Source: Humibacillus sp. DSM 29435
GTDB lineage: Bacteria > Actinomycetota > Actinomycetes > Actinomycetales > Dermatophilaceae
DNA length: 64,000 nt
Reading direction: 5' to 3'
NCBI RefSeq assembly: GCF_001758225.1
Contig: NZ_MAST01000016.1
Span: forward strand, 1-64,000
Of the stretch, positions 12,797-39,296 are shown piece after piece. The position numbers and the translations under genes are program-made. How positions within the stretch are numbered: position 1 is the stretch's first letter; each line of letters begins with the position of its first letter. The notes under the pieces were generated by a model, which saw only the letters and a program-made list of their open reading frames with translations, searched no databases and was not told the origin of the DNA.

Positions 12797-12799
12797 GTC

Positions 12800-14030: not shown

Positions 14031-15332
14031 GTGTCGCAGCCCGACCCGCGCCGACTCATCCCGCGCACCGACACGCTGCTGGCCCTCCCGGTGTTCGTCG
14101 AGGCCGCCGCTCGGCTCGGTGACGCGGTGGTGCGGGCGGCCATCGTGACCGCTCAGCAGCAGGCTCGCGACGGCCAGATCGCTCCCGAGGCGGTCGCCGA
14201 CGCTGCCCGCGCCGGGCTGCCGACGAGCTCGACGACCCTGGAGCCAGTGCTCAACGCCACCGGCATCGTGGTGCACACCAACCTCGGTCGCGCCCCCCTG
14301 TCGTCGGGGGCGGTCGCGGCGCTCGTGCGGGCGGCCGGCTACGTCGACGTCGAGTTCGACCTCGCGACGGGCGCGCGGGCACGCCGCGGCCGCGGCACCC
14401 TCGAGGCATTGCTCGAGCAGGTACCGACGGCGGGTGACGCCCTCGTGGTGAACAACGGCGCCGCGGCCCTCGTGCTCGCCACGACCGCCCTCGCCGCAGG
14501 ACGCGAAGTGGTGGTCAGCCGCGGCGAGCTCGTCGAGATCGGGGACGGGTTCCGGCTGCCCGACCTGATCGAGTCGACCGGCGCGCGGCTGCGCGAGGTC
14601 GGCACGACCAACCGCACGCACCTGGCCGACTACGCCGCTGCTGTCGGCCCCCACACGGGCTGCATCCTCAAGGTGCACCCGAGCAACTTCCGCGTCGCGG
14701 GGTTCACCTCCGCCGTGGGCCTCACCGAGCTGGCGACGCTCGGGGTGCCGGTCGTCATGGACATCGGCAGCGGGTTGTTGACGTTCGACTCGTCGACGCC
14801 CGAGGAGCCCGACGCTACAAGGGCGCTCGCCGCCGGTGCCACGGTCGTGACCGCGAGCGGCGACAAGCTGCTCGGCGGTCCGCAGGCGGGGCTCGTGCTC
14901 GGCGACCGGCAGGTGGTCGAGCGACTGCGCCGGCATCCCCTCGCTCGCGCCCTGCGCGTCGACAAGCTGACCCTGGCGGCGCTCGAGGCCACCCTGCGGG
15001 GGCCGGTGGTGCCGGTACAGGCCTACCTGCACGCCGACTCCGCCGTTGTGCGCGCCCGCACCGAGCGCCTCGCTGCCGCCCTGGGTCGCGAGGTCGTCGA
15101 CGTCGTCGGTGCCGTCGGCGGTGGCGCTGCTCCCGGGATGCCGCTGCCCGGGTGTGCGGTCGAGCTTCCCTCCCGATGTGCCGAGGCCCTTCGCCTCCGC
15201 CGTCCTGTCGTCGTCGCGCGGGTCGAGCGGGGACGCTGTCTCGTCGACCTGCGCTGTGTCCCGGCCGACGACGACCTGTTGGTGGAAAGCGCCATCCGCG
15301 CGGTGCTCGACGCTCCCGACAGCGGTGGCTGA
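14031..15332 (+). CDS. selA: L-seryl-tRNA(Sec) selenium transferase (selenocysteine synthase)
   Basis: A 433-residue PLP enzyme that converts seryl-tRNA-Sec to selenocysteinyl-tRNA-Sec using selenophosphate. The PLP lysine is K279 in ASGDKLLGGPQAGLVLG, and VLNATGIVVHTNLGRAPLS is a family signature near the N-terminus. The GTG start is preceded by GGAGGAGG. Length is close to the usual 430-460. It begins 57 nt after tRNA-Sec, and selB starts 2 nt after its stop, so selA and selB are coupled. Confidence 0.95.
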   Translation: MSQPDPRRLIPRTDTLLALPVFVEAAARLGDAVVRAAIVTAQQQARDGQIAPEAVADAARAGLPTSSTTLEPVLNATGIVVHTNLGRAPLSSGAVAALVRAAGYVDVEFDLATGARARRGRGTLEALLEQVPTAGDALVVNNGAAALVLATTALAAGREVVVSRGELVEIGDGFRLPDLIESTGARLREVGTTNRTHLADYAAAVGPHTGCILKVHPSNFRVAGFTSAVGLTELATLGVPVVMDIGSGLLTFDSSTPEEPDATRALAAGATVVTASGDKLLGGPQAGLVLGDRQVVERLRRHPLARALRVDKLTLAALEATLRGPVVPVQAYLHADSAVVRARTERLAAALGREVVDVVGAVGGGAAPGMPLPGCAVELPSRCAEALRLRRPVVVARVERGRCLVDLRCVPADDDLLVESAIRAVLDAPDSGG

Positions 15333-15334
15333 GC

Positions 15335-17284
15335 GTGGCCGTCATCGCCACTGCCGGCCACGTAGACCACGGTAAGTCGGCTCTCGTTCGGGCCCTGACC
15401 GGGATCGAGCCCGACCGGTGGCAGGAGGAGCGCCGCAGGGGCATGACGATCGACCTCGGCTATGCGTGGACGACACTGCCCTCCGGCGCCGAGGTGGCCT
15501 TCGTCGACGTGCCGGGCCACGAGCGCTTCATCGGCAACATGATCGCCGGTCTCGGGCCGGTTCCGGCCGTGCTCTTCGTCGTCGCAGCCGACGAGGGGTG
15601 GCGCCAGCAGTCGGAGGAGCATCTCACGGCCGTCGAGGCTCTCGGCCTGAAGCACGGGCTGCTCGTGGTGACCCGCTCCGACCTCGCCGACCCTGACGCC
15701 GCCCTCGGTGCAGCAGCGGAGCGGTTGCAGGCTGCCGGTCTCGGCGGGTGGGAGGCGAGGGCGGTGTCGGCGCGAACCGGGCAGGGGCTGCCCGAGCTGC
15801 GCTCCGCCCTCGACCGTCTCGTCGCAGGCCTGCCCGAGCCGGAGACCGACGCTCCGGCGAGGCTGTGGGTCGACCGCAGCTTCACCGTGCGCGGCAGCGG
15901 CACCGTCGTCACGGGCACTCTCGGCCAGGGACGCATCGGCGTGGGTGACCGCCTGCGGCTCGTCACCCAGCACGAGACGGAGCGCGTGCTTACCGTGCGC
16001 GGCCTGGAGTCACTGGGGCGGCCGCGTGAGGAGGTGTCCTCGGTGGCGCGGGTGGCCCTCAACCTGCGTGGAGTGAGTGCCGACGAGATCGGCCGGGGCG
16101 ATCGGCTGGTCGGCGCCGGAGCCTGGCACACGACAGCGGTGGTCGACGTCGAGCTCACCGTGGTCGGCGCCGGGGGAGGGCACGAAGGTTCGGGAGCAGG
16201 GCAGGTCGGGCAGCCGGTTGGGCTGCAGGTTGGGCAGGTCGAACGAGGTCAGGCGACGGCGCTGCCCACCCACGTCATGGCTCACGTGGGAACCTTGGCC
16301 ATCGAGGCGCGGGTACGCCCGCTGGCACCAGCGGACGCGCCAAGCTCGACGAGCCTCTCGACCTCCTCGAGCAGCACGGCGCGGCTGACCTTCGGTCGGG
16401 CCCTGCCGCTGCGCCCCGGTGACCGGCTCATCCTGCGTGACGCCGGAGCTCGGCGGGGGCTGGCCGGGGCCCGTGTGCTCGACACCGACCCACCCGGCCT
16501 TTCTCGGCGAGGATCGGCCGCCCGGCGTGCCCTCGACCTCGCCGCCCTGTCAGCGGGGCCCGACCTCGATCGCGAGGTCGGGCGACGGGGGGCGATGACG
16601 GTCGCCGACGCCCTCACCCTCGGCCACCGCCTCGAGACGATTCCCGACGAAGAGACGGGCCCTGCCGCCGGTGCGCTCGACGATGCGTCGAAAGTGCACC
16701 GTCGAGGGGCCTGGCTCGTCGACGCCGCACAGTGGCTCGACTGGGTACAGGCGCTTCGAGCCGGCGCCGAGAACCAGGCCCGCACCGACCCACTTCAACC
16801 CAGCCTCTCGCTGGAGGCGGCCCGCGCCGCGGTCGGCGTGCCCGACCGCGCGTTGCTGGCGAGGCTGGCCGTGGAGTCGGGCCTCGAGGTGGTCGACGGC
16901 CGGGTCGGGCTTCCGGGAGTCCGGGCGGCCCTCGACCCGCGCACAGAGGCCGGCCTCCAGGCGATCGAGCAGCGGTTACAGGGCGCGCCCTACGCGGCCC
17001 CCGAGCAGCACGATCTCGACGCCGCCGGTCTGGGGCCCCGACAGCTGGCTGCGGCCGAGAAGGCCGGACGCGTTCTCCGGCTGCCCGGCGAGGTCGTGCT
17101 GCTTCCCTCGGCCCCGGCCCGGGCGATGCGGGTGCTGGCAGCCCTGCCTCAGCCCTTCACGACGAGCGAGGCCCGTCAGGCCCTCGACTCGACCCGGCGC
17201 ACCGTGGTGCCCCTGCTCGAGCACCTCGACGGGCGCGGCTGGACCAGGCGCCTCGACGGCACCCATCGTGAGGTGCGTCGCTGA
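15335..17284 (+). CDS. selB: Selenocysteine-specific elongation factor
   Basis: The GTP-binding factor brings Sec-tRNA to the ribosome at UGA codons next to SECIS hairpins. I start it at GTG 15335, giving 649 residues, because the family sequence begins exactly there (GHVDHGKS at residues 8-15); the open frame extends into selA but is not conserved. G2/G3 features are GMTIDLGYAW and DVPGHERFIGNM. After the EF-Tu-like domains a glycine- and glutamine-rich insertion (near 16175-16260) interrupts domain III. The C-terminal winged helices that bind SECIS RNA end in LLEHLDGRGWTRRLDGTHREV. Confidence 0.95.
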   Translation: MAVIATAGHVDHGKSALVRALTGIEPDRWQEERRRGMTIDLGYAWTTLPSGAEVAFVDVPGHERFIGNMIAGLGPVPAVLFVVAADEGWRQQSEEHLTAVEALGLKHGLLVVTRSDLADPDAALGAAAERLQAAGLGGWEARAVSARTGQGLPELRSALDRLVAGLPEPETDAPARLWVDRSFTVRGSGTVVTGTLGQGRIGVGDRLRLVTQHETERVLTVRGLESLGRPREEVSSVARVALNLRGVSADEIGRGDRLVGAGAWHTTAVVDVELTVVGAGGGHEGSGAGQVGQPVGLQVGQVERGQATALPTHVMAHVGTLAIEARVRPLAPADAPSSTSLSTSSSSTARLTFGRALPLRPGDRLILRDAGARRGLAGARVLDTDPPGLSRRGSAARRALDLAALSAGPDLDREVGRRGAMTVADALTLGHRLETIPDEETGPAAGALDDASKVHRRGAWLVDAAQWLDWVQALRAGAENQARTDPLQPSLSLEAARAAVGVPDRALLARLAVESGLEVVDGRVGLPGVRAALDPRTEAGLQAIEQRLQGAPYAAPEQHDLDAAGLGPRQLAAAEKAGRVLRLPGEVVLLPSAPARAMRVLAALPQPFTTSEARQALDSTRRTVVPLLEHLDGRGWTRRLDGTHREVRR

Positions 17285-25241: not shown

Positions 25242-25397
25242 CCGCGACTCCCAGGCCGAGGAGGGGTGCGGTGCTGTTCGACCTGCCGCTCAGCATAGGA
25301 GCGCTTGGTGGCCATGTGCACAGGACGGCCGAACCTGCTGCGTTCCCGGCGCCGACACGACTGTGGATCGTGCGTTCGGTGGGCACGTCTTTCGCTC

Positions 25398-25409
25398 TAG
25401 CATCGCCAG
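25398..25409 (+). promoter_or_regulatory. -10 element of a probable leaderless promoter
   Basis: TAGCAT (25398-25403) precedes the ATG at 25410 by exactly six bases; no ribosome site is visible. Confidence 0.4.
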
Positions 25410-25886
25410 ATGCGCGCATCCGGCACACGCTCGGTCTTCCTCGCGATGATCCCCGTGCATCTGCTGATCCTCGGGTGGGTGTGGATCGGGCGGGCCGCCT
25501 TCGGGAACGGCGGATGGATGACGCTGATCCTGCTCGTCACCGTCATCCCGGTCGTGGCGCTTGCCCTCGCGCTGACGACCCTCCTGTCGTTCCGTCGTCG
25601 GCCGGCGCCGCGAGCCCTGACGGCGCGCCAGGTGAGAGCACAGCTGGTGACGTGGGCAGGCCTGTTCGTCGTGGGGTTGTTCATGTACGACTTCACCGAC
25701 GCACCCGAGAGCGACAAGACGGTGCTGACGCAGCTGTTCGGCTACTCCGACGCGTTGTTCACCCTGAGTGCGGTGCTCATCGGAGTCGGCGCGATCACGG
25801 CGACCGGCGGCTGGGTCTGGCTGCTCTCCGAGCTGCTGCGCGACCAGACCCGACTGGCGGTCCCGACGGGAGTCGGTCACGACTGA
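25410..25886 (+). CDS. Small four-segment membrane protein, unknown
   Basis: 158 residues with four hydrophobic stretches: SVFLAMIPVHLLILGWVWIG, WMTLILLVTVIPVVALALAL, AQLVTWAGLFVVGLFMYDFT and FTLSAVLIGVGAITATGGWV. The second and third are separated by a basic loop (RRRPAPRALTARQVRAQ). I recognise no family. It is divergent from the large regulator gene and convergent with the sortase gene, leaving 26 nt between stops. Confidence 0.65.
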   Translation: MRASGTRSVFLAMIPVHLLILGWVWIGRAAFGNGGWMTLILLVTVIPVVALALALTTLLSFRRRPAPRALTARQVRAQLVTWAGLFVVGLFMYDFTDAPESDKTVLTQLFGYSDALFTLSAVLIGVGAITATGGWVWLLSELLRDQTRLAVPTGVGHD

Positions 25887-25912
25887 GCGATTCGGGCTGT
25901 TCCGGAGGCGCC

Positions 25913-26629
25913 TCAGGCCCGGTTGGCGAAAACAATGAGGTTGTCCTGACTGCTCATAGTCACAGCGGGCGAGAGCAGGCAGGTGATGACTACGAGCTGG
26001 TCGCCTCTGGACTTCCGGTCGCGCCAGATTCGCGGATCGCGCGCTGCCTCGCCCTTGGTCTCGATCGCTGTTCCGGTCACCACGTAGGCGACCCCGTCGA
26101 CCGTCAACGGGTCACCGGCGAAGACGAGGGGATGCCGCCCGGCTGAGGCGTCGTCGGCGGCATCCGTGGGCGGGTTGATGAAGGCGTTGCCCGGCCCTCG
26201 ACCACCACGCACCGAGTGCATGGTGACCACGACCAGCCCGGTGCTCGGGTCACCGACCTGGCCGTAGTCACGCATGACGAAGGCGTCGGTGAACGTCGGT
26301 GGCGTGATGACGCCGTCGACGACCGAGGCAGCGAGCAGTGGCACCGAGAGCTTCTGACGGGAGGCGACGAAGCGACCCCCGGTGGGCTTGGCCTTCGCTC
26401 GGTCGAGCTCGGGCGCGGCTTGCCAGACCACCCGGTTCCCGTCGAGGTCTCGGCTGACCTGCGCCCCTGGGGGAGAAGTGTTGCGATCGAGCCCGGCGCG
26501 CAGCAGCAGCCCAGAGGTGATGGCGGCGACGAGGGTGACCGTGGCGATCACCACGGTCACCCATCGTCGCGGCGCCACTCGTGCCCGGCTCAGGGAGTCG
26601 ACCCGCCTCGACGCCGTCGTGCGAGCCAC
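25913..26629 (-). CDS. Sortase (class E/F-like) of the adhesin operon
   Basis: A 238-residue, single-pass membrane transpeptidase. After a basic tail and one hydrophobic anchor (VTVVIATVTLVAAITSGLLL) the sortase fold shows the catalytic histidine in VTMHSV, cysteine in LVVITC and arginine in FANR. Sortases link proteins bearing a sorting motif to cell-wall precursors or to each other. It is the last gene of the operon and its substrate is probably the adhesin just upstream. GTG 26629 overlaps the adhesin stop by 40 nt; an in-frame GTG at 26578, 11 nt after that stop, is the alternative start. Confidence 0.82.
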   Translation of the reverse strand: MARTTASRRVDSLSRARVAPRRWVTVVIATVTLVAAITSGLLLRAGLDRNTSPPGAQVSRDLDGNRVVWQAAPELDRAKAKPTGGRFVASRQKLSVPLLAASVVDGVITPPTFTDAFVMRDYGQVGDPSTGLVVVTMHSVRGGRGPGNAFINPPTDAADDASAGRHPLVFAGDPLTVDGVAYVVTGTAIETKGEAARDPRIWRDRKSRGDQLVVITCLLSPAVTMSSQDNLIVFANRA

Positions 26630-29600
26630 GCGCCACCCAGGGAGGCGAGCAGGGCCGCGAGCCCGGAGCCGACGAGCAGTCGGGTGCCCGATCCGCTGAG
26701 CTGGCCACCGGTGTCTGACACCGGTCCGCCGTTGCCTGCGTTGCCGTTGCCTGCGTTGCCGTTCCCACCCTTGCCGGCGCCCGGCGGAGTGGTCGCTCCA
26801 GTGATCGGTGGGGTGGTGTTGGGCGGTGTCGTCGGCGTCGGACCGTTGAACGTGTTGGTCACCGTCACGGTCACCACCGTGCCGTCACCCACGGTCACCG
26901 TGGGCTGGTCGATCGTCGTGCGGTCGGCCCCACCGGCATCCGGCTCGGTGACATCGCACTTCGCCCCCGTCGGCAGGCCATCGAAGACGGCCCGGTAGCC
27001 GTTGTCCTTCGACACCGTCGCCTGCCCGCCGCCGGGCAGCACGACCGGCGTGGTCGTGTCGCCCAGCAGGTAGGTGCACGACAGCGCCACCGTGAACGTC
27101 TTGTCGGCCGCCGCCCCTGCGCCGTCACCGTCGATCTCCTTGACGACCGCGACCGATCCGCCGGCGAAGGTGTTCGTCAAAGTGAACGCCACCGGGGTGG
27201 TGCCCGCGGCATCGACCGTGACCGACGAGGGCGTGAGCACGGCTCCCGTGGCCCCACCGTTGTCGGTCTCGGTCACGCTGCACAGGGCCTTGTCGGGCAA
27301 CCCTTCCCAGGTGGTCGACAGGCTGCTGCCCCTCGAGAGCTGACGGATGCCGTCTGCGTCGATCGTGACGGGGGCGGGCTTGCCGTTGACCTCGATGGTG
27401 CACGACAGCGCAACCGTGAACACGCGGTCGTCGCCGACCTGGCCGGCGGCCGGGCCGTCGATGACCTTGGTCACCGTGACCGACCCGACATCGAACCGGT
27501 TCGTCACCGTCAGCAGGGCCGGCGTCTTGGCCTTGGCGTCGACCGTTACTGAGTCGGGAGCGACGTCACTTGCGCTTGCCCTGCCGTCGTCGGTCTCGGT
27601 GGCCTTGCAGATGGCGCCGTCGGGCAGGTCGCCCCACGTCGTCGTCAGCCCGGCGGCGGCCGAGAGCGTGCGCTCGGCGTCCTTGCCCAGGTCGATGGGC
27701 TTGACCTCACCGTTGACCGTGACCTCGCAGGAGAGGCGCACCGTGAACTCCTGCTTTGGGTTCACCTGGTCGGCGCCGTCGCCCTCAATCTTCTTGGTGA
27801 CCTCGACCGACCCGAGCAGGAAGGTGTTGGTGATCGTCACCTTCAGGGGCTCGGCCGAGTCGCCGTCGATGGTCACCGGCATGTCTGGCGTGATCGCGGT
27901 GCTGCTGGCCCCTCCGGCATCCGGCTCGGTGACATTGCACTTCGCGGCGTCGGGCAGGTTCTTGATCTCCTCAGTCAGCTTGTCGCGACTGAGGGTGAGC
28001 GTGCGCTGGTACACCGTGACGTCGTCGAGCGTGCACGACACCTCGACGGTGAACGTGCCGACCGTCGGATCGTCAGCCCCGGCGCCGGCGAGCTTCTTCG
28101 TGATCTGCAGACTGCCGACCCTGAAGGTGTTGTTGAAGGCCACGGCGTTGGTCGCCCCACCCTGCGCGTCGTCGGCGGTCAGCGCGAGCGTGATGACGTC
28201 GGTGCCGGTGACCGTCTGGTCGGCGATCGTGCCGGTCGAGGTCGTTGTCTTGGCTCCGCGTGTGTCGGTCTCGGTCGCCGTGCACTCGGAACCGGCCGGC
28301 AGGTCGTCGAACCGAGCAGTCTCGCCCGCGAGGAAGCTGGCGGTCATCGGTTGGTCGGCCGAGTAGCCGGTCGCATAGATGGGCTCGCCCAGGAAGGTAC
28401 AGGCGACCTCGAAACCGAACGGGCCGTAGACGACCGGCTTGCCGTTCTGGTCGAGCGCCGAGTCGGTGACCTTCTTCGACAGCACGAGCGAGGCGAACTC
28501 GTAGGTGTTCGTGGCGATGACGATGGGCACCGTCTGGCCATCGCGGGCCACCGTGACGGTCGTGGCCTCGAACTGCGAGGCTCCAGAAGTGGCCCGGTCG
28601 TCCTTGACCGTGCACTTCGAACCCCAGGGGATGTCGCTCAACGTCGCCTCTTCGTCGGCGGCGAGGGTGATCTTCCCGTCGTTCGCCAGGGTCACCGCCT
28701 GGCCGACCGAGGTGCAGGTGGTCACGAGGTCGAAGCTCACCGGTGCGTTGACCGCGGCCGGGCCCTGCACCTTCTTGGTGACCTTGATCGGCCCGGTGGC
28801 GAGCGCCGCGCCGACCTTGTTGCCTTCCGAGCGAGGTGCGAAGCCAGAGCCGGCCCCGTTGCGGGTACGCGCGGCCTGGGCCACGGTGTTCCACGCGATG
28901 GTGTCGGCGCCGGGTGTCTTCGACTCGGCCGGGGCCGTCGTCGTGATGTCGATCGACAGCCGTGCGCCGGGTTGCCACAGGCTGTCGAAGTCGGTCTCGA
29001 ACTTCAGGGCCACGACGTCGGCGGGGTCGACGTCCGTGGTCCAGGGCTTCCAGCTGCCGGCCGGGCAGCTCTTGTTGCTCAGTTCGGCGACGCACAACGG
29101 CAGGTCACTCGTGTAGTAGACCCGGAAGTCGGAGACGGTGCCGCTCGTCGTGCCGACGAGCTTGACGTCCTTGAGGTTTGGGCGCCACTTCGAGTCGCGC
29201 GGCGTGGTCACGAACGCGCCGGTGTCACCGACATCGGGCATCCGGTCGATGGCACGCACCTGGTCGATGGGCAGGTTGCCGCTGTTGCTGAAGGTCAGGC
29301 GCCACACGTCGTCGCCACCGGGCTTGGTGACCGGCACGCAGCCGCCCTGGTAGAAGCCCGCCGCGTCAGGGGTGCAGCCGGTGGGGTCGTCGCGGATGTT
29401 GAGCACGCCGAGGGCGTCGTCGGTAGCCTTGACCGACTTGACCCCTCGAATGGCGCCGGCGACCGTCGGGTAGACGGTGGCCGAGGCGCGGCACTCGCCG
29501 GTGGCGTCGTCGAGGGTGGCCTTGCACCCGTCCCACGGCCGCTGCCCGACGATGCCGGTGGTGTTGGTGACGTCGGTGTTGCCGGCCAGGCCGGGGCGGA

Positions 29601-32600
29601 AGACGAGGTCGGTCGTGATCGTGTAGGTCTGGCCGACCTCGAGCACCGTCCCCGTGGGGAAGCTGAAGGTCAGCAAGGTCGGGGTCGCCGCCACCGTCAC
29701 CCCGGTCTGGGTGGTCGGCATCGGCGGACCGCTCGGCGGGCTGGGGGCATCTCCCTCGAGTCCGTAGGTGTACGGGCTCTGACCCGGGGGCAGGTCGGGG
29801 TTGATCACGAGCAGCGGGCCGGAGCCATCGCTCGGGATGCGGTCGTTGATGAACGGGTCGGTGATCGCGACGTCACCGTCGTTGCGGAACGTCAGCACGT
29901 ACGGGATTCCCACACTGGGAGGGCGCGCTCCCGTGGGCGCCTTGGTGACGACGACGGAGTTCTTCGCGTGCTGGTAGCGGATGGTGTTCTCGGCCGTGGT
30001 GTCGGCCGTGATCGGCTGGCCGCCCACGAGGGCGGCGCCGCGCACGGCGCTCTGGATCGTGTTGGTGGCCAGGCCCGCGGTCGTCTCACCGGGCGCGGGG
30101 GTGTTGCCCGCGAGGTCGGAGGGGACGGGGCCGCCAGTGTTGAGCTCGACGCGGCGCTGCACCTGCATCGGCATCGAGGCCTGGGGCGTGGCCGGGTTCT
30201 CCCAGACAGTGCCGTCGGCGCGGGTGAAGGTGTAGCGGATACCCTGCACCTGGGTAGGGGTGACCCCCGGCGGCAGCGTCGGCGTCGTCGCCGCTGTGCC
30301 GGTGACCCAGGCGCCGCCGGTGAGCACCGGCTCGCCGCCGCCGACGCTCCACGTACCGCCGGTGAACGCGTCGACCTGCACCCGGTTGATGGGCGCGGTG
30401 AGCGTGAAGTTCGGGCCGAAGCTGAGGAAGTCGTACTGGTCGAAGAACGAGGTGTCGGCGTCGGTCACGACCATCTGGTTGGTGCGCGAGGGGCCCTTGG
30501 GGGTGGAGGTGAGGGTCATGGTGACGGGCGAGCGGTTGGGCTCGACCTGCACGCCGGGCGAGAAGGCCTTGGTCGCCACCACCCCGATGCCCTGGGTGAT
30601 CAGCGCGATGCTGGCGGAGTCGTCGTCAGTGGCCGAGACGATCGGCGTGCCCGGGTAGTTGACGAGATCCTCCACCAGCACATCGGCATCGTTGCCCACG
30701 GTGCCCGTCTTGACCGGCGAGCCGTCACTGCGCAGGGTCGGACGCAGTCGCGTGTCGAGCACGAGGTTCGCGACGGCACCAGGAACGATGCGCCCGGTGT
30801 AGACGATCGTCAGACCGACGATGTCGGCCAGGGATGCCGTGGTGGCAGCGAGGGCCTCGGCGCGGGTGAGTGTTCGCGTCGACCCGTCGGCGGCGCTCAG
30901 CGTGATCGCCACGCCAATCGCCCCGATCGTGGTCGGGTCGGTGATGGTGACGAACCCCTTGAGGTCGAACGTGTCGAAGGGGTTGGTGGCACCGACGGGG
31001 TCGGTGATCGTCAGCCGGTCGACGTTGCGCGGAGTCGTGTTCTTCGCGGCGATCGAGGCCCGGCCCGACGGGTAGTCGCCCACAGGCGAGCCGGCCGGGG
31101 GCACACCGAGCGGGCCACCAGCCCAGTTCTTGGTGATGTTGGCGGTGACCGGCACGTCGACGATCGAGATGATGTCGGAGTCGGTGTCGCTGACGATGAC
31201 CTTGCCCGCGACGAGCCCGTCGGCACTCGCCGTGTTGCTGACGTCACCGGGAGCGCCGGCGACGTTGTAGACGGAGGTCGCGAGCACCGGCTTCGTCGCG
31301 GCGCTGCGCCGGTCGTCGCGAATGGTGAACACCGGGTGGATCTGCCGGTCGTTGTCGAACGAGCGGGCGACGCCGCTGCCCACCGGGGGAGCGGTGGGGT
31401 CGTTGCCGATACGGCTCGCGCGGGTCGGGCTCTCCTCGAACACGAGACGGAAGGCGATGGTCGAGGCGCGCTCGGCCCCGCTCAGGGCGACGCCGGGGAA
31501 GGTGCCGTCGCAGCGCCCCGGGCAGGGGTCGGCCGAGGCCGTGGTCCAGGCGCCGGTCGAGGCGTTGAACAGCTCCACCCGGTTGACCCGGTCGTAGGTC
31601 AGCAGCGGGTCCAGCGCGGGGGTGATGGCGTCGATCCGTGCCAGGTCGAAGCTGTCGAAGACGGCCCCGGCCACGGCGCCGGCCGACGGGTTCGGCACGT
31701 CGCTGACGATCTCCTGGTCGAGGCCCGAGCGGCCCCCGGTCGACCAACGGATGGTCAGACCGGCGTTGGCGCCGGTGCGCTCGCCGATGGTCTTAGGCGC
31801 GTCCCAGTCCTTGGTGATGAGGTTGCCGACGCCCGGCTCGGGCGGGACGAGCTGGATGACCGGGCAGTTCGGTGGCGCGAGGGCGGCGCCCGTCGGGTCG
31901 ACCCCGGGAGCGGTGGCGGCCGAGGCGGCACAGTCCTCGATCGTGATGTCCTGGCCGGCCAACGCCGGCTTGAGGGCGAACGAGAGGTTCGGCTTGACCG
32001 AGGTGCCGGGGGCGAACCCGGCGTCGCTGCGGTAGACGAAGCGCAGGCCCTGCGCCTTTGCCTGCACGTCGGCGGGTAGGTCGCCGGAGTAGACCTGCGG
32101 GCCGGCGAGGTCGGTCATGTTCGACACGTCGACCCAGGCGTTGCCGTTCCACCACTGCACGGTCAGCGTCGAGTCGGCCGGGATGGGCGTCGCGGCCACG
32201 GTGCGAGGCGCGAACGCCTTCCACCAGCCGTCGGTCGCGAAGTCGGCGGGGTCCTGGACGATGAGCTCGTTCGCGGCGGTGGTGGAGTCGGGGAAGGGCT
32301 TGAGGGTGCCGCTGAGGCGCACGGTGGCGGTCTCACCCGGGATCGACAGCAGGCTCTTCGGCGAGATGGTCTTGCCGACCTCGACCGCCAGGCGCTTCTT
32401 CAGTGTCGTCAGGGTGGCGGTGGCGGTATCGGTGCCCGTGAAGCCGCCGGGGGCGGTGGAGTCGGCTGAGATCGTGTTGGGGCGCTCCACGGAGTCGGCC
32501 GTCTGGGCGGCGTCGCTGCTCACCGTGAACGGGGCGGTGGCCGCGGAGCCCGCGACGATGGGGCCGGTGTAGCGGATGGTGAAGCCGACAACCTCGCCAG

Positions 32601-34005
32601 CGGGCGGGTCCGGCAGGGTGTTCGGGCCGGTGGCGGGCACGGTGACCTCGCCGCCACCGGCGAGGGTGTAGGTCACCGAGGCACCGGTGGCTCCGGAGGG
32701 CCAGCGGATGCCGCTCGCCCAGCCGGTGAACGTCAGTCCGTTCGTGAACGGGTTGGTTCCACCGCTCGGCTCGGTGATGGTCAACGAGCCGAGGGTGCGG
32801 TCGCTGCTGTTCCTGGCCTTGAGGGTGACCGTGCTCGTGCCCTCGGCGGCGATGGTGGCGGGGTCGAAGGACTTCGCGGCTGTGACCTTCAGGTCGGGGG
32901 TGAGCACGGTGTAGCGCGCGTTGGCCGTGGCCGGTTCCGAGGTGGCGCCGCCCGCGGTGACGGTCGTGGCGGCGGTGTTGTCGACCGGGCCGACCGCGAC
33001 GGCATCCGACTGCTCGAGGCCAAGGCCGAGCGAGACGGTGGTACCCGCCTCGATGGGCGCTCCACCGATGCTGGCGTAGGTGACCCGGAAGCCGCGCACG
33101 TCGGCGGGGTCGATGCCCGGGGGCAGAGTCGCGGTGGCGCCGGGCGGGCCGTTCACCCAGGCGCCGCCCACCCACACGTCGACCTGCACCTGCTCGGCGC
33201 CGGCGGGCAGCGGGGCGGTGATGGCGCCGGTGAAGGCGAGCGAGTCGAACGGGTTGGGAGCGGCAGCCGGGTCGGCCGGGTCGACGATCTGGAGGGAGTC
33301 GACCGGAACGTTCGAGGTGTTGCGGCCGGTGAGCGAGAGCTGAACCGGCGTGCCCGGCGACGCGATGCCCGAGGCCGGCGAGTACGCCTTGGTCGTCGCC
33401 GCCGCAAGGAGGATTTCGACCTCGGGCACGACCGTGAAGTCGTCGCTCTTCGCGTCGGTATTGGTGCCGTCCACCGTCGCGACGTTCCGCAGGGGTCGAC
33501 CGTTCTCGGTGGCCGGGATGTCGGCAGACACCACGACCGGCACCAAGATGGTGACCGACGAGCCGCCCTGAAGGCCGACCGCACCGGGCGGGTCTGACAG
33601 GCGCTCGGTGAAGACGACCTTGACGTCCTGACCGCTCACGTTTGCAGTGCCGGGTGCACCGGTGACACTGATCGCCCCGGTCACCGACAGGTACCCCGGC
33701 AGCGGGTCGGTGAGCACCGCGTTGGTGCAACCACCGGTGGCGTCGGTGTTGCTGCAGGTGACGACGATGCTGTACACGAGGCGTTCGCCTGGCGCGACGG
33801 GTGCGTTGTCGGCTCGGCCGACGATCCGCTTGTCGATGGTGAAGAACCCGGGGCTCTCGGCCGCGGCGGGAGCCGCGGCGATGATCGGGGCCAGTACGAG
33901 CCCAAGCGCAGCGACGACGGCGGTGAGGATCCGTCCTCGTTTCGGGCGCGTGGCTCGCCCGGCTGGGGAGGCGCGGCGAGTGCGGTGCGGGCGGTGGTCA
34001 GCCAT
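26590..34005 (-). CDS. Giant surface adhesin with six DUF5979-like repeats and C-terminal anchor
   Basis: A 2471-residue exported protein. ATG 34005 is preferred over GTG 34017 because it overlaps the lipoprotein stop (ATGGCTGA) and has AGGAAG 11 nt upstream. Signal peptide: basic tail, then ILTAVVAALGLVLAPIIAAA, cleaved near residue 49. Residues about 50-1730 form a long series of beta-rich modules of the DUF11/isopeptide type. Residues about 1740-2387 hold six tandem domains, each with a (V/I)xxTKK-like start, two cysteines and an NTF end. A proline/threonine and GNGNAG linker leads to VSDTGG, a hydrophobic segment LLVGSGLAALLASLGGAWLA and RRRR, a sorting signal with a non-standard motif. 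The sortase gene follows directly. Confidence 0.85.
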   Translation of the reverse strand: MADHRPHRTRRASPAGRATRPKRGRILTAVVAALGLVLAPIIAAAPAAAESPGFFTIDKRIVGRADNAPVAPGERLVYSIVVTCSNTDATGGCTNAVLTDPLPGYLSVTGAISVTGAPGTANVSGQDVKVVFTERLSDPPGAVGLQGGSSVTILVPVVVSADIPATENGRPLRNVATVDGTNTDAKSDDFTVVPEVEILLAAATTKAYSPASGIASPGTPVQLSLTGRNTSNVPVDSLQIVDPADPAAAPNPFDSLAFTGAITAPLPAGAEQVQVDVWVGGAWVNGPPGATATLPPGIDPADVRGFRVTYASIGGAPIEAGTTVSLGLGLEQSDAVAVGPVDNTAATTVTAGGATSEPATANARYTVLTPDLKVTAAKSFDPATIAAEGTSTVTLKARNSSDRTLGSLTITEPSGGTNPFTNGLTFTGWASGIRWPSGATGASVTYTLAGGGEVTVPATGPNTLPDPPAGEVVGFTIRYTGPIVAGSAATAPFTVSSDAAQTADSVERPNTISADSTAPGGFTGTDTATATLTTLKKRLAVEVGKTISPKSLLSIPGETATVRLSGTLKPFPDSTTAANELIVQDPADFATDGWWKAFAPRTVAATPIPADSTLTVQWWNGNAWVDVSNMTDLAGPQVYSGDLPADVQAKAQGLRFVYRSDAGFAPGTSVKPNLSFALKPALAGQDITIEDCAASAATAPGVDPTGAALAPPNCPVIQLVPPEPGVGNLITKDWDAPKTIGERTGANAGLTIRWSTGGRSGLDQEIVSDVPNPSAGAVAGAVFDSFDLARIDAITPALDPLLTYDRVNRVELFNASTGAWTTASADPCPGRCDGTFPGVALSGAERASTIAFRLVFEESPTRASRIGNDPTAPPVGSGVARSFDNDRQIHPVFTIRDDRRSAATKPVLATSVYNVAGAPGDVSNTASADGLVAGKVIVSDTDSDIISIVDVPVTANITKNWAGGPLGVPPAGSPVGDYPSGRASIAAKNTTPRNVDRLTITDPVGATNPFDTFDLKGFVTITDPTTIGAIGVAITLSAADGSTRTLTRAEALAATTASLADIVGLTIVYTGRIVPGAVANLVLDTRLRPTLRSDGSPVKTGTVGNDADVLVEDLVNYPGTPIVSATDDDSASIALITQGIGVVATKAFSPGVQVEPNRSPVTMTLTSTPKGPSRTNQMVVTDADTSFFDQYDFLSFGPNFTLTAPINRVQVDAFTGGTWSVGGGEPVLTGGAWVTGTAATTPTLPPGVTPTQVQGIRYTFTRADGTVWENPATPQASMPMQVQRRVELNTGGPVPSDLAGNTPAPGETTAGLATNTIQSAVRGAALVGGQPITADTTAENTIRYQHAKNSVVVTKAPTGARPPSVGIPYVLTFRNDGDVAITDPFINDRIPSDGSGPLLVINPDLPPGQSPYTYGLEGDAPSPPSGPPMPTTQTGVTVAATPTLLTFSFPTGTVLEVGQTYTITTDLVFRPGLAGNTDVTNTTGIVGQRPWDGCKATLDDATGECRASATVYPTVAGAIRGVKSVKATDDALGVLNIRDDPTGCTPDAAGFYQGGCVPVTKPGGDDVWRLTFSNSGNLPIDQVRAIDRMPDVGDTGAFVTTPRDSKWRPNLKDVKLVGTTSGTVSDFRVYYTSDLPLCVAELSNKSCPAGSWKPWTTDVDPADVVALKFETDFDSLWQPGARLSIDITTTAPAESKTPGADTIAWNTVAQAARTRNGAGSGFAPRSEGNKVGAALATGPIKVTKKVQGPAAVNAPVSFDLVTTCTSVGQAVTLANDGKITLAADEEATLSDIPWGSKCTVKDDRATSGASQFEATTVTVARDGQTVPIVIATNTYEFASLVLSKKVTDSALDQNGKPVVYGPFGFEVACTFLGEPIYATGYSADQPMTASFLAGETARFDDLPAGSECTATETDTRGAKTTTSTGTIADQTVTGTDVITLALTADDAQGGATNAVAFNNTFRVGSLQITKKLAGAGADDPTVGTFTVEVSCTLDDVTVYQRTLTLSRDKLTEEIKNLPDAAKCNVTEPDAGGASSTAITPDMPVTIDGDSAEPLKVTITNTFLLGSVEVTKKIEGDGADQVNPKQEFTVRLSCEVTVNGEVKPIDLGKDAERTLSAAAGLTTTWGDLPDGAICKATETDDGRASASDVAPDSVTVDAKAKTPALLTVTNRFDVGSVTVTKVIDGPAAGQVGDDRVFTVALSCTIEVNGKPAPVTIDADGIRQLSRGSSLSTTWEGLPDKALCSVTETDNGGATGAVLTPSSVTVDAAGTTPVAFTLTNTFAGGSVAVVKEIDGDGAGAAADKTFTVALSCTYLLGDTTTPVVLPGGGQATVSKDNGYRAVFDGLPTGAKCDVTEPDAGGADRTTIDQPTVTVGDGTVVTVTVTNTFNGPTPTTPPNTTPPITGATTPPGAGKGGNGNAGNGNAGNGGPVSDTGGQLSGSGTRLLVGSGLAALLASLGGAWLARRRRGGSTP
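26850..28790 (-). repeat. Six tandem DUF5979-like domain repeats inside the adhesin
   Basis: The repeats begin near minus-strand positions 28788, 28490, 28112, 27808, 27482 and 27152. Starts read IKVTKKV, LVLSKKV, LQITKKL, VEVTKKI, VTVTKVI and VAVVKEI. Each has one cysteine in a (T/S)C(T/E) strand and one in a (K/E/I/L)C(T/N/K/S/D) turn, well placed for a disulfide. Copies 4-6 are the most alike, suggesting later duplication. Confidence 0.8.
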
Positions 34006-34651
34006 GGGAGGTGACACTTCCTGTGGAGGGCGCCGCCTGCGAGGGGCCAGGGGATGCGGTGGTGCATCGGGTGGAGGTCGGGGTCGACAAGGTGACGTCG
34101 CCGAGCAGAGCGTCGAGGAGGTCGTGCGCCTCGGCGCTGGACGTATGGTCGAGATCGATCAGCCGGGACTGCCCGTCTTCGATCGTGATGAGGAGTGGGT
34201 CGTTGCGCTCGCCGTCACCGGCCTGCTGCGACGTGCCGTTGGATGTCGGTGGCGCTGATCGCGTCGCTACGTTGCCCACCGGGCTGACGGCCAAGAGCGT
34301 CAGGAGTCGTTGCTGCGCCGGCGTCAAGGCGCACACCCTGCCGCGCACCACGCGGGAGTCGACGTGCACGCGTCCGTTGGCCTCCAGGACGAGATGGTCG
34401 TCGAACCCGGCCACCCCACCGGTGCGTACCACGGTGAGCGGGAACACGATCCGCGGGGTACCGGCGAGCTGTTGCAGGCCTGAGCGGTTGGGCGAGTTTG
34501 CTGTATCACCGGTGGCGCCGGAGAGAGCTCTGGATGCCGGCGGTTCCGGCGCGAGCGCACAGCTGCTCATCGCGAGCGTGCAGACCGCGATGAGGGCAGA
34601 GTCGAGGCAGCGAGCTGACCTCGACCGGACTCTCGGCACACCAGGATCCAT
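33998..34651 (-). CDS. Putative lipoprotein resembling emfourin protease inhibitors
   Basis: 217 residues. The N-terminus LIAVCTLAMSSCALAPEPP has a lipobox-like MSSC, so a lipid-anchored exported protein is likely. Residues about 70-125 (FPLTVVRTGGVAGFDDHLVL, then VRGRVCALTPAQQRLLTLL) resemble emfourin, the inhibitor of protealysin-like metalloproteases, chiefly in the V-x-R-x-GG-x-AG motif. This is motif-level similarity only. The gene starts 4 nt after the channel gene's stop and its stop overlaps the adhesin start by 8 nt. It may protect or position the adhesin; this is inference. Confidence 0.6.
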   Translation of the reverse strand: MDPGVPRVRSRSARCLDSALIAVCTLAMSSCALAPEPPASRALSGATGDTANSPNRSGLQQLAGTPRIVFPLTVVRTGGVAGFDDHLVLEANGRVHVDSRVVRGRVCALTPAQQRLLTLLAVSPVGNVATRSAPPTSNGTSQQAGDGERNDPLLITIEDGQSRLIDLDHTSSAEAHDLLDALLGDVTLSTPTSTRCTTASPGPSQAAPSTGSVTSHG

Positions 34652-34655
34652 CCGG

Positions 34656-36125
34656 TCACCTCCGCACGATTCCGGCGGTCGCAGGCGGTGAGGACGGCGA
34701 CGTCGAACTGGTCGTCAGCTGGCGGTCGGCGTTCTCCACGGCTGCCGTGAGCTGTTGGCCCCGGCGGTCGATGTCCTGACCGATGTCGCGCGAGAGTCGT
34801 ACGTTGTGGCGGGCGAGCTCGTCGAGCACCTCGGCCGGAACCGTCAGCACGGTGAGCTCGGTCGCCGCGACGCAGGTGTAGGCGCTCGGCTGTTTGGTCA
34901 AAGCGGTGAGCCCGGTCAGGTCGCCGCGGCTCAGGGTGAGAGGGCTGATCGTGCCGGCGCGACCGTAGGGGATGGTGACTCGTGCTTGGCCGTCGGCGAT
35001 CCATCGCACCGTGCCCGGAACCCGGCCGATCTGGTCGATGATCTCACCAGGTGCGAACCGCTCGAGGTCGAGGCGCGGCGCGAGCTCGTCGAGCTGCTCT
35101 GGTTTGATGTGCAGCCGGCTCGCCGCCTGGCGCAGCAGGTCCAGCACGTCGTCGGCGCTCTCGTCCTTCCAGATGTCGGCGCCATCGAGCGCGATGTTGG
35201 CTCGTCTCGCGGCGTACCAGAGCCGCAGCTGGAACTGGGCCCTGGCTTCTCCGGCGGCGGCGAAGGTGCCGAGCGTGAAGCTGGTGGTGAAACGGCCGGC
35301 GCCCACGAAGCTCACGTCGGGTCGGCTGCCGGGCAGCTGCCCGGGGATGGCGTCGGCGACCCCCTGCAGGGTGGCCATGACCACGGCGGGGGAGTCCTCC
35401 TTGGCGAAGGCCGACTCGATGGTCTCGGTGACGGTGGCGTTGGGCCGGCTGAGGTTGGTGAACGACGCCCCGGCCAGCGACGAGTTCGGCACGATCTGCA
35501 GCCCGGCGTCGGTCTGGATGTGCACCGCTCGCCAGTTCACCTCGACGACGCGGCCCTTGACGCCTCCTGCGTCGAGCCAATCACCCAGGGTGAAGGGCTG
35601 CTCGAAGAGCAGCAGCAGCCCGGCCACGATCGAGCCGATGGCGGTCTGCAGGGCGAGGCCGATGACGATCGAGGTGACCCCGAGGGCGGTGAAGATGCCT
35701 CCGACGTCGGCCCCCCACACCCACGAGAAGAGGATGGCGAGGCCGATGGCGATGATGATGATGCGCGCGATGTCAATGAAGATCGACGGCAGCTTCTTGC
35801 GCCACGAGCCGCGGTCGGCGTTGACGAACAGGGCCGTGTTCAGGCTGGAGATGGCGAAGTTGAGAAGCAGCAGCCCGAGACCGGTGGCGGCGATCTTGAA
35901 CCAGTTCGAGTCGTTGGCAACGATGTCGTCGGGGATGACTGCGAGCAGCACGACGAGCGCCGCGAGCGGCAGCACATAGGTGCGGAACACGTGTAGCGGC
36001 CGGGTCATCGAGCTGCGTCGTCGCTCGAGGTTGGTCTCCACTTCGGCGAGGAAGATGCTCAGCACGGGTAGCCCGACGACCACCACACCGCACCAGATCA
36101 GCCACGACTGGCTCCAGACGCTCAC
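34656..36125 (-). CDS. MscS-family mechanosensitive channel with cyclic-nucleotide-binding domain
   Basis: A 489-residue protein. Start is GTG 36125, overlapping the sensor stop (GTGA); the longer open frame upstream is an out-of-frame reading of the sensor gene. Four hydrophobic segments precede the MscS pore and beta domain (GVTSIVIGLALQTAIGSIVA, FTLGDWLDAGGVKGRVVEVN, IVPNSSLAGASFTN). The C-terminal third (residues about 350-465, ERFAPGEIIDQIGRVPGTVR, ISPLTLSRGDLTGLTALT) has the layout of a cyclic-nucleotide-binding domain. Such fusions may be gated by membrane tension and a nucleotide. The paired upstream gene is a cyclase-like sensor that looks inactive. Confidence 0.85.
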   Translation of the reverse strand: MSVWSQSWLIWCGVVVVGLPVLSIFLAEVETNLERRRSSMTRPLHVFRTYVLPLAALVVLLAVIPDDIVANDSNWFKIAATGLGLLLLNFAISSLNTALFVNADRGSWRKKLPSIFIDIARIIIIAIGLAILFSWVWGADVGGIFTALGVTSIVIGLALQTAIGSIVAGLLLLFEQPFTLGDWLDAGGVKGRVVEVNWRAVHIQTDAGLQIVPNSSLAGASFTNLSRPNATVTETIESAFAKEDSPAVVMATLQGVADAIPGQLPGSRPDVSFVGAGRFTTSFTLGTFAAAGEARAQFQLRLWYAARRANIALDGADIWKDESADDVLDLLRQAASRLHIKPEQLDELAPRLDLERFAPGEIIDQIGRVPGTVRWIADGQARVTIPYGRAGTISPLTLSRGDLTGLTALTKQPSAYTCVAATELTVLTVPAEVLDELARHNVRLSRDIGQDIDRRGQQLTAAVENADRQLTTSSTSPSSPPATAGIVRR

Positions 36126-38380
36126 GACTGCTCCCCCTCCGCCAGCAGCCACGCCTGCTGGGGCCCGGTCTTGGTCTGGAACTGGCCCGCCTCGGTGAAC
36201 GGCACGGCATCCCGCGCGGTGTCGTACACGGTCTGGGTGACGTAGACGCCGGGCTGGTTGTCGGACTGCACCCGGAAGGCGAGGTTCACGCTGTCGCCCC
36301 AGAGGTCGTAGACGGCCGAGCCTCCGACCAGCCCGCTGGTCACCGGTCCGCTGTCGATACCAGCCCTGATCGCCAGCGTGATGCCGTGCTGGGCGCCGAC
36401 CATCGCGACGTCGCGCTGCACCTCCTTGGCGAAGTCGAGGCAACGCCCGACATGGTCGACCCGCGGAACGACGAGGCCGCAGGTGGCCGAGAACCCGGAA
36501 CGGAGCGTGCGCACCTTCTCCAGCCCGTGCTTGTTGGCGGCACGGTCTATGACGGCCACGATCTCGTTGAGCACCACCAGCGACTCGGCGGCCGACCGGT
36601 CGCGGGTGCCCTCGTCGAGGCCGTCGATGGTGCCGTAGACGACCGACACGTCGATGTGTTCCTCGACGATGTTCTGCTCACCTTCGCGGTAGCGGCGGGC
36701 CACGTTCTCGGGCATGAGCGTGGAGACCATGCGGTCGTTCTCCTGCGTCTGCTCGTCGAGCAGCTCCTGTTTCGTGCTGAGGCTGGTGGCCATGTCGTTG
36801 AAGGCGAGGCCCAGGTCGGCAAACTCGTCGTCACCCTTGGGCACGACGCGAGCCGCGAGGTTGCCGCCGGCCACCTCGCGCACGGCCGTGAGCAACCGCT
36901 TGACCGGTCGCGTGAAGGCTCGGGCCAGCAGGGTCGACAGCAAGGTGATGAGCAGCACCGCCCCGATGGTGATGGCGGCGAGCACCCGGAAGAGGTTCGT
37001 CACCGGCGCGAGCGCCTCGTCCTCATCCACCTGGGCGAGCACCGACCAGGTCAGCCCGTCGACGGTGAGTGGTGCGTAGGCGGTGATAACGCGGCGCCCG
37101 AGGTAGTCGGTCTCGGTGACCGTTCCGGTCTTGCCGGCCAGGGCCATCGACACCGAGGGGCTGTCGACCTTCTGCAACAGGATCGGGTTCTTCTCCTTGA
37201 CGATGGCGTCAGCCACGGCCGCCGGTGTGCCGTTGTCGATGGTGAGCTGGCGGTACTCCTTCGGCTTCTGCAGCAGAATCCGGGAGGTTGAGCGCATGGT
37301 GTGATCGGGCCCGACGAGATAGACCTCACCGCTCTGGCCGAGGCCGCTGGTGGCCCAGGTGCCCTTGCCGGTCATCGTGTTGTTGATCGTGTCGACCGGC
37401 AGCTGCACGACGAGCGCTCCCGTCAGCTTGCCGTCGACCCCGATGGGGGAGACGCCGAAGATGGTGGGCGTGTTGTAGCTGGGGGCGTAGGCCTCGTAGT
37501 CGACCACGGCGAAGGCGTTGACGGAGTTGGCCTTGAACACGTCCTTGATGGCGGTGGCCAGGGCCGAGTCGCGGTAGGCCCCGTTGAGGAGGTTGACGCC
37601 GAGGTCGGCGCCCTTGTACGTCGTGTAGACCGAGTTGCCATCGGGGTCGACGAGCATGACGTCCTCGAACCCGTTCTGCACGGTGACGTTGCGAAAGAAC
37701 GGGTGGTACTTGGCGTGGGCCGTCGACCACGCGCTGCCATCGCCGGCGTCGGTGTTCTCGACGGCCTTGTCGAAGTCGGTGAAGGGTGCGGTGTACTTCG
37801 CCTGCAGGTACCAGCCGGCGTTGCTGCGCGGGTAGAAGGCCGGGGGGGCGACCTCACCGTTGACGTGCGGCGCCAGGTTCGGCACGAACACGTTCTGGTA
37901 GTACCTCTCGACCGCGGCCCGGTCGGCGGGGGCCACCGGTTGCCGGTTCAGGCTCTGGTAGCCGGTCTCGAAGTCGCGCATGGCGTCCTGGGCGATGCCG
38001 GTGCTGTTGAGGATGGTGTTGGTGCGCAGCGACGCCTCGGCGGCGGTGATCTGCTTCAGCCGGGCGTCACCCACCGCGATGACCTTGTCCTTGGCCGCCT
38101 GAGTGAGCGCCGTGCTGGCCAACCGGTAGCTGATCAGCCCCGTGGCCAGGATGGACACGATGCTGACGCCGAGCAGCATCGCGAGCAGCTTCGACTGGAT
38201 GCCGAGCCGCGACCACATCCCAGCCCGACGGTGTGGCGTGGCCGAGGTGGGCGTCAACGCCGGCGAGGCACCACCGTTGCCCGGGTCAGCGGGCGATGCG
38301 GTTGCGGCGCTGGGCGCTGGTGACGGGGCGTCTGCCTCTGATGAGGCCTCGCGCTGCGTGGGGGTGAGCGGCTGAGTCAT
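36122..38380 (-). CDS. Membrane sensor with degenerate class III cyclase domain
   Basis: 752 residues: a low-complexity N-terminal tail, a membrane segment (LLAMLLGVSIVSILATGLIS), a large extracellular Cache-like sensor, a second membrane segment (LAAITIGAVLLITLLSTLLA), HAMP, then a class III adenylate/guanylate cyclase domain. WGDSVNLAFRVQS is intact, but the first metal aspartate (FADI in active enzymes) reads YGTI, with threonine at 584. The second (GD in KTIGD) reads RS, with serine at 628. Both catalytic metal ligands therefore appear lost. It is probably a signalling pseudo-enzyme, or its product differs. It heads the channel-lipoprotein-adhesin-sortase operon. Confidence 0.82.
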   Translation of the reverse strand: MTQPLTPTQREASSEADAPSPAPSAATASPADPGNGGASPALTPTSATPHRRAGMWSRLGIQSKLLAMLLGVSIVSILATGLISYRLASTALTQAAKDKVIAVGDARLKQITAAEASLRTNTILNSTGIAQDAMRDFETGYQSLNRQPVAPADRAAVERYYQNVFVPNLAPHVNGEVAPPAFYPRSNAGWYLQAKYTAPFTDFDKAVENTDAGDGSAWSTAHAKYHPFFRNVTVQNGFEDVMLVDPDGNSVYTTYKGADLGVNLLNGAYRDSALATAIKDVFKANSVNAFAVVDYEAYAPSYNTPTIFGVSPIGVDGKLTGALVVQLPVDTINNTMTGKGTWATSGLGQSGEVYLVGPDHTMRSTSRILLQKPKEYRQLTIDNGTPAAVADAIVKEKNPILLQKVDSPSVSMALAGKTGTVTETDYLGRRVITAYAPLTVDGLTWSVLAQVDEDEALAPVTNLFRVLAAITIGAVLLITLLSTLLARAFTRPVKRLLTAVREVAGGNLAARVVPKGDDEFADLGLAFNDMATSLSTKQELLDEQTQENDRMVSTLMPENVARRYREGEQNIVEEHIDVSVVYGTIDGLDEGTRDRSAAESLVVLNEIVAVIDRAANKHGLEKVRTLRSGFSATCGLVVPRVDHVGRCLDFAKEVQRDVAMVGAQHGITLAIRAGIDSGPVTSGLVGGSAVYDLWGDSVNLAFRVQSDNQPGVYVTQTVYDTARDAVPFTEAGQFQTKTGPQQAWLLAEGEQS

Positions 38381-38440
38381 GTCCAGGTTCCCGATTGAGG
38401 TTAAGGGGGAGGAAGGGAGAGGGGGCGCAAAGGCGCGGGT

Positions 38441-39187
38441 CTACTGCGGTACCGAGGCGCTGGTGGGGTCCTTGTCGCCCTTGGGAACGGCGGTCTCGAA
38501 GAGGGGAGCGACGAGGGCGGCGAGAGCGCCTCCGATCATGGGGGCGACGATGAACATCCACAGGTGGGTCAGGGGGGTGCCGCCTTCGAAGAGGGCGGGG
38601 CCGATGGAGCGGGCGGGGTTGACCGAGGTGCCGTCCAGGGGAATCCCGACGAGGTGGATGACGGTGAGCACGAGCCCGATGGCGAGGCCGGCGAAGCCGG
38701 GGGCGGCGGCCCGGCTGGTGACCAGCAGCACGACGAAGACGAGCAGGAAGGTGAGCACGACCTCGAGCACGAAGGTGCCGCCGGCAGTGATGCTCTTGCC
38801 CCAGTCGTTGGTGCCGAGCCCGCCGGTCTGGTCGGTGACGCCCCCGAACCCGGACACCATGAGCTTGATCAGCGCGGCGGCCACGATGGCCCCCACGAGC
38901 TGGGCCACCCAGTAGTAGGCGGCCTCGGTGGTGGTGATTCCCTTGTTCAGCAGCACCCCGAGGGTTACGGCGGGGTTGACGTGGCAGCCGGAGACCGGCC
39001 CGATGGAGTAGGCCAGGGCGAGCAGGACCAGCCCGAAGCTGAGCGCGACGCCGACCGGGCCGAGCCGGTCGATGCCGAAGACGGCTGAGCCGACGCCGAA
39101 GAAGACGAGGATGAAGGTGCCCACGGCTTCGGCCACCGCTTGTCGGGTGGCGGTCGGCTTGAGGATGGGCGTGGTCTCGCTGGACAT
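38441..39187 (-). CDS. MIP-family channel (aquaporin/glycerol facilitator)
   Basis: A 248-residue, six-segment channel with both family signatures, HVNPAVT and SVNPARS. ATG 39187 is chosen because GAAAGG precedes it and upstream residues in the open frame look non-coding. The residues around the second NPA box (GTSVNPARSIGPALF) fit a water channel better than a glycerol facilitator, which usually has NPARD; this is an inference. It lies 60 nt upstream of the cyclase-like sensor on the same strand and could be co-transcribed, an interesting link to the mechanosensitive channel. Confidence 0.88.
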   Translation of the reverse strand: MSSETTPILKPTATRQAVAEAVGTFILVFFGVGSAVFGIDRLGPVGVALSFGLVLLALAYSIGPVSGCHVNPAVTLGVLLNKGITTTEAAYYWVAQLVGAIVAAALIKLMVSGFGGVTDQTGGLGTNDWGKSITAGGTFVLEVVLTFLLVFVVLLVTSRAAAPGFAGLAIGLVLTVIHLVGIPLDGTSVNPARSIGPALFEGGTPLTHLWMFIVAPMIGGALAALVAPLFETAVPKGDKDPTSASVPQ

Positions 39188-39296
39188 GGAGGGGCCTTTC
39201 GGGGTTCGAGGTCGTCGGAGGGGGCGAAGGTGGGCGGGGCAGTGGTGGAGCGGCGGAACAGGCGAGTCAGGGGTCGGTGGCAATCGGGCGGTGGGT

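Follow-up and report, generated by a model that had tools for sequence, protein, structure and literature searches.

A receptor with a degenerate class III cyclase domain and an MscS-type channel with a remodelled CNB domain are encoded as a strict gene pair in Humibacillus and other actinobacteria

Genes and features of the Humibacillus locus

The window, that is, the whole stretch of DNA analysed, comprised 64,000 nt of Humibacillus sp. DSM 29435 (contig NZ_MAST01000016.1), in which five ORFs were found on the minus strand at the coordinates claimed in a preliminary description of this DNA. The first of them (36122-38380) encodes a receptor of 752 aa, for which Pfam, TM prediction and residue alignment gave a TM segment (residues 65-83), an extracellular dCache domain, a second TM segment (466-484), a HAMP domain and a degenerate Guanylate_cyc domain. 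HAMP and Guanylate_cyc were both found by Pfam, the cyclase catalytic fold (PF00211) scoring 82.9 bits against a cut-off of 21.9, and dCache stayed under the Pfam cut-off. The second gene (34656-36125, minus strand) encodes an MscS-type channel of 489 aa with a C-terminal remodelled CNB domain. Both of its Pfam domains, PF00924 (MscS beta domain) and PF00027 (cNMP_binding), were above cut-off, and its AlphaFold model (mean pLDDT of 76) matched MscS and CNB domains in Foldseek. Receptor and channel are coupled by a 4-nt stop/start overlap on the minus strand (36122-36125), where the receptor stop TGA sits within GTGA; its sequence bore out the overlap described before. The longest channel ORF would have 595 aa, opening at a TTG that lies too far upstream by 318 nt; translation likely starts at GTG 36125, which yields the 489 aa and is implied by the 4-nt overlap together with a purine-rich ribosome site, the stretch GGAGGGGGAG, just 5′ of it.

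The channel is separated by a real 4-nt gap (34652-34655) from a lipoprotein gene (33998-34651, minus strand), an extra paralogue of an Intrasporangiaceae-type family with an emfourin-like motif. Relatives of this lipoprotein were found in 25 of 100 family genomes, and a second copy lies in this genome on another contig (C9:29041). The label ‘emfourin-like’ lacks Pfam support, as there was no emfourin match for the lipoprotein at E≤10 nor for one relative at 0.01, but a short motif and relatives that adjoin M4 proteases speak for it. Several relatives have such a protease next to them (one Pfam-confirmed as thermolysin-type), and none was found in this window; a candidate role of the family near M4 proteases is that of a secreted inhibitor or partner. 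The loci where an emfourin-like lipoprotein adjoins an M4 thermolysin-type protease were L172, L173, L176-L179 and L181.

The remaining two genes encode a giant surface protein (26590-34005, minus strand), in which Pfam confirmed six DUF5979 domains and the sequence revealed a signal peptide, the sorting signal VSDTGG and a C-terminal TM segment, and its partner, a divergent sortase with His138 and Cys217 (25913-26629, minus strand). The 8-nt overlap reported between lipoprotein and adhesin (33998-34005) holds provided that ATG 34005 is the adhesin start. Likewise, the 40-nt overlap reported between adhesin and sortase holds with the first GTG (26629), but becomes a 29-nt gap with GTG 26560, the start picked by the gene caller. 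No Pfam family matched the sortase at thresholds up to E=10, but the label found support in the fold match of a low-confidence model, for which the 50 best PDB matches in Foldseek were all sortases. Moreover, the MH and TC motifs are conserved, and the position before DN, where the catalytic Arg of strand beta-8 would be expected, holds Q, V and V in the three members, an assignment limited by that low-confidence model. Relatives of the sortase were found in 3 of 100 family genomes. The adhesin-sortase pair occurs without the channel in another genus of the family (L170), where the two proteins are 43% and 42% identical to those of the window, the adhesin relative has 2505 aa and the genes overlap by 4 nt. 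DUF5979-type surface proteins with a divergent sortase apparently devoid of the usual Arg were observed at L170 (5540-13746) and L171 (5261-7961), and xTGG was common to the sorting signals VSDTGG, SVSTGG and SVNTGG.

The five genes fill nearly all of a variable block of ~13.1 kb (25312-38433), delimited by comparison with a genome of the same genus (G001). In the latter, the block flanks lie ~100 nt apart: the part matching the window up to 25311, a LuxR-type gene with the region upstream of it, is followed by the aquaporin end (window 38434), and a second G001 contig begins inside the same aquaporin gene. A small gene on the plus strand (25446-25886) also belongs to the block; in G001 it lies at a different place. 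Since the channel is rare (no other family genome was found with it) and the sortase is present in only 3 of 100 genomes, it is suggested that the block was gained here rather than lost in G001, a direction that a comparison of two genomes cannot prove. Repeats at the block ends amounted to an 11-bp match only, with no mobile-element signature, and the scan for promoters and terminators gave counts at or below the level of shuffled sequences, so it does not settle the transcript ends. In another part of the window (5778-17284), a tRNA-SeC (13878-13973) was observed near two genes placed like selA and selB, along with a formate dehydrogenase-like gene whose reading frame contains a TGA (6345-6347, ARI*HSST), likely encoding selenocysteine.

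Outside the block and 60 nt upstream of the receptor lies an AqpZ-type aquaporin gene identified by Pfam (38441-39283, minus strand); no second aquaporin was found in this genome, and G001 has the gene without the block. Its proposed link to the upstream end of the operon gained support, recurring in three other lineages: Plantibacter, Agreia and one Mycolicibacterium, in addition to this genome, carry an AqpZ-type gene on the strand of the receptor-channel pair and at most two genes away from it. With 2.4 aquaporins per genome, ~0.12 such adjacencies would be expected per 100 loci, and three lineages correspond to P(≥3) ~2.5e−4, an estimate that presumes random gene order for a link seen in few lineages. 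The pair-adjacent aquaporins group in the tree with the AqpZ of their own species, and thus the linkage arose more than once. Such recurrent neighbours suggest an osmotic or cell-volume role of the receptor-channel pair, being the sole hint of such a role.

The preliminary description had regarded the five genes as a single system under mechanical or osmotic control of attachment. Among everything searched, the five-gene order was present in this genome only, an outcome which that description had itself named as speaking against it. No lipoprotein, adhesin or sortase was seen near any of the 100 other cyclase-channel loci (most of them with 8 kb of flank), and the adhesin-sortase pair exists elsewhere without the channel, so mechanical control of adhesion found no backing. 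It would be very unlikely that the channel, by sensing tension or osmotic state, steers the production or anchoring of the adhesin within one five-gene system: all five genes are tightly spaced and present or absent as one block, but their combination recurs at no other locus, the adhesin and sortase are known in another genus without the channel, and the lipoprotein family is placed elsewhere near M4 proteases. Association beyond chance was found for the first two genes and for the adhesin with the sortase, not for the five-gene order. Therefore, the five genes make up three parts, namely a core of receptor and channel, an extra copy of the emfourin-like lipoprotein, and the DUF5979 adhesin together with a sortase of its own. 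The second and third parts lie in the block as cargo distinct from the core pair, with which they are probably co-transcribed in this genome. Of the single expression unit proposed earlier, what stands is a plausible co-expression here, all five genes lying within one variable block.

Conservation of the pair and loss of canonical residues

In 99 of 100 channel loci, the gene immediately upstream of the channel, closely spaced and in the same orientation, encoded the cyclase; the sole exception lies at a contig end, with 39 nt of contig before the channel. Furthermore, 33 full-length cyclases matched 33 channels one to one in 395 genomes of the class, where each search scored the top candidates per genome, and three of these genomes had two receptor-channel pairs each. 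Channel orthologues (37-48% identity) appeared in Microbacteriaceae, mycobacteria, Rhodococcus, Saccharopolyspora and others, while only this genome among 38 relatives presented a full-length channel relative. Tree distances of receptors and channels correlated with r=0.949 over 97 pairs (best of 500 permutations, 0.14), part of which is shared species history. Receptor and channel are strictly paired and co-inherited, and in several families as well as in a second class their frames are intact and many positions invariant. The genes flanking the pair vary by lineage, and an ABC exporter, sugar ABC permeases, GH13-like genes, cysteine genes and antigen-85-like genes were discarded as further partners, their recurrence tracking lineage synteny. 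No relative was found in viral contigs, and the plasmid candidates were rejected for being only distant MscS-CNB proteins (25-31% identity, none at 80% query coverage), with no cyclase beside them in three annotated neighbourhoods (the fourth one, from Ensifer, was without annotation).

In the window receptor, the two metal sites are occupied by T584 (Asp1) and S628 (Asp2), so the two metal-binding Asp of active class III cyclases are missing. Among 127 aligned receptors, Asp2 was Asp in none, being replaced by Asn, Gly, Ser, Glu, Gln and others, while Asp1 was Asp in 78 and Glu in 45, thus acidic in 123. The Lys/Arg specificity and transition-state residues vary across the family, the specificity Lys being often lost and the transition-state Arg being Arg in 69 of the 127 receptors. 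From these residues we infer a loss of enzyme activity in the receptor. A weak cyclase activity would nevertheless be possible in fifteen family receptors on account of their acidic residues at both metal sites. The base-contact Asp was retained in all 127 receptors, and for this reason the cyclase domain may still bind a nucleotide. The other cyclase found in this genome, the only one, is soluble, is encoded on another contig and has intact metal-site motifs (FADLVNF and VGDE).

The channel presents a parallel loss, as the phosphate-cassette Glu was found in 0 of 109 channels and the cassette Arg in 0 of 109 under either of two alignments, whose Arg columns differ by two positions; the family thus falls outside the canonical cNMP-binding cassette of bCNG channels. 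In 17 of the 109 channels, an Arg appeared one place before the realigned cassette-Arg column. Moreover, a new CNB motif, GxTxLTR[EQ], was nearly invariant, and positions near the lost cassette residues were G in 108, L in 106, T in 105, R in 107 and A in 109 of the channels, the near-invariant motif Arg being Lys in the window channel. With both cassette residues missing and the neighbouring G, L, T, R and A hardly varying, the Crp-type pocket of the CNB domain is rebuilt rather than decayed. The Crp of this genome and an Azospirillum MscS-CNB protein retain both cassette residues, while other proteobacterial MscS-CNB relatives, from Burkholderia and Lichenicola, miss one or both of them, so MscS-CNB proteins outside this family have lost cassette residues too. 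The gene of the Azospirillum channel with the canonical cassette (L207, 3692-5164) adjoins genes for the osmoprotectant N-acetylglutaminylglutamine amide and is without a cyclase. Overall, the earlier labels ‘cyclase-like’ and ‘nucleotide-binding’ are misleading, since the whole family has lost residues required to make cAMP and to bind it in the canonical way.

Deep relatives were found in three genomes from other families of the phylum, with a receptor A, a channel and a receptor B in one tight operon (L204, 4193-10004; L205, 4327-10183; L206, 5013-10833), so that two different non-canonical cyclase receptors surround one channel. Receptor A and the channel overlap by 4 nt in all three operons. 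The four deep receptors scanned by Pfam all had the cyclase fold, and most had dCache and HAMP. In receptor A, Asp1 is lost and GDAY at Asp2 is intact in two genomes, while receptor B has lost both metal Asps; a complete metal site is restored neither within one chain nor by pairing. The cassette residues are absent from the CNB domain of the deep-operon channels as well.

Possible working of the receptor-channel pair

With a probability of about 0.6, the core pair would be a two-protein receptor-gated channel that works without cAMP, a reading drawn from the sequences and their conservation. The dCache domain of the receptor would bind an extracellular signal, which would pass via HAMP to a class III cyclase fold no longer producing cAMP. 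The cyclase fold, or a non-cAMP ligand on receptor or channel, would then act upon the rebuilt CNB domain of the MscS-type channel, which is translated from the same mRNA, and would set whether the channel opens. Both the physical coupling and the direction of gating belong to this proposal. We lean towards gating by contact, as the receptor was never separated from the channel, though a new ligand would be equally possible considering the precedent of a trypanosome PKA CNB domain. A receptor-channel contact would bring together a heptamer (MscS channels) and a dimer (class III cyclases), so its stoichiometry is not obvious. More tentatively, and with odds somewhat short of even, the pair could be an ancient bacterial complex that made a direct conformational relay out of both components of a cAMP circuit, the cyclase and the cyclic-nucleotide receptor, so that an outside ligand gates an MscS pore without a second messenger; in deep lineages, two different dead-cyclase receptors would flank one channel.

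The domain names and the gene adjacency would fit a classical circuit in which the cyclase makes cAMP or another cNMP that opens a neighbouring bCNG-type channel, and so would the acidic Asp1 in 123 of 127 receptors and the invariant base-contact Asp. However, this is unlikely given the loss of Asp2 in 127 of 127 receptors and of the cassette Glu and Arg in 109 of 109 channels, along with the variable specificity and transition-state residues. The invariance of the base-contact Asp despite the loss of metal Asp also recalls the C2 half of mammalian cyclases, in which the base contact is kept and the metal Asps are lost. Thus, the receptor might give the base-contact residues and another cyclase the metal site of an active heterodimer, and the two receptors encoded in deep relatives are in line with it. 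Yet the metal site is incomplete in both of those partners, a soluble protein encoded on another contig is the one further cyclase found here, and the specificity Lys and transition-state Arg are frequently lost too, making an active heterodimer quite unlikely. Finally, the absence of catalytic residues could point to decaying pseudogenes of an old cAMP circuit whose function was lost, which is scarcely credible for genes that keep intact frames and many invariant positions in several families and a second class, and in which receptor and channel were duplicated together as pairs.

If the receptor-gated channel proposed here is right, ligand-gated channels of a class widespread in actinobacteria have so far escaped notice, and both a cyclase and its cyclic-nucleotide sensor gave up signalling by a chemical messenger in favour of another mode, probably contact. 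Moreover, the mycobacterial members are counted among the adenylate cyclases feeding cAMP signalling, and such counts would be wrong if they are non-catalytic channel receptors. Mycobacterium smegmatis would offer a clean test case for the idea.

Comparison with known systems

The primers for MSMEG_3578 of M. smegmatis (PMC3961136) translate to IVNKLV and LHNGYL, the motif of the receptor family with Asn at the Asp2 site, and the same paper pairs MSMEG_3578 with Rv2435. Judged by these translations, the receptor belongs to the family of mycobacterial Rv2435c/MSMEG_3578, and Rv2435c carries a dCache domain like the window receptor. MSMEG_4477 was discarded as the M. smegmatis member, Table 2 of that paper indicating MSMEG_3578. 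In the literature, Rv2435c is presented as one of the adenylate cyclases in the cAMP network and Rv2434c as a cyclic-nucleotide-binding membrane protein; as of 2014, five annotated M. tuberculosis cyclases were without demonstrated activity, without it being stated whether Rv2435c is one of them. A literature search, which covered a 2004 survey (PMC2447327) by its abstract and references, found no paper on a cyclase-MscS pair; this survey names both Rv2435c and Rv2434c and may already note their adjacency.

In the regulatory subunit of trypanosome PKA, the cassette Arg is replaced and the CNB domain moved from cAMP to nucleosides (PMC6440977, PMC10959531), although this is a eukaryotic kinase with substitutions other than those of the window channel family. 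In mammalian PKA, loss of the CNB Arg alone leaves the cAMP response (PMC6440977), a result that counts against gating without cAMP.

The layout TM-dCache-TM-HAMP-cyclase is common to class III receptor adenylate cyclases and the window receptor, but the complete metal site has been lost in all members of the window family. The idea of a cyclase with a CNB effector is shared with Pycsar, which was set aside, the PADLOC matches to cyclase and effector being weak (E of 0.002-0.01). Pycsar depends on an active cyclase and is not known to be built around a dCache-HAMP receptor. Finally, bCNG channels are bacterial cyclic nucleotide-gated members of the MscS superfamily (Caldwell 2010 and Malcolm 2012, cited in PMC4560390). 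Both these and the window channel carry a CNB domain behind the MscS pore and beta domain, whereas the window channel family differs in lacking the cassette Glu and Arg and in having a new motif and an obligate receptor partner.
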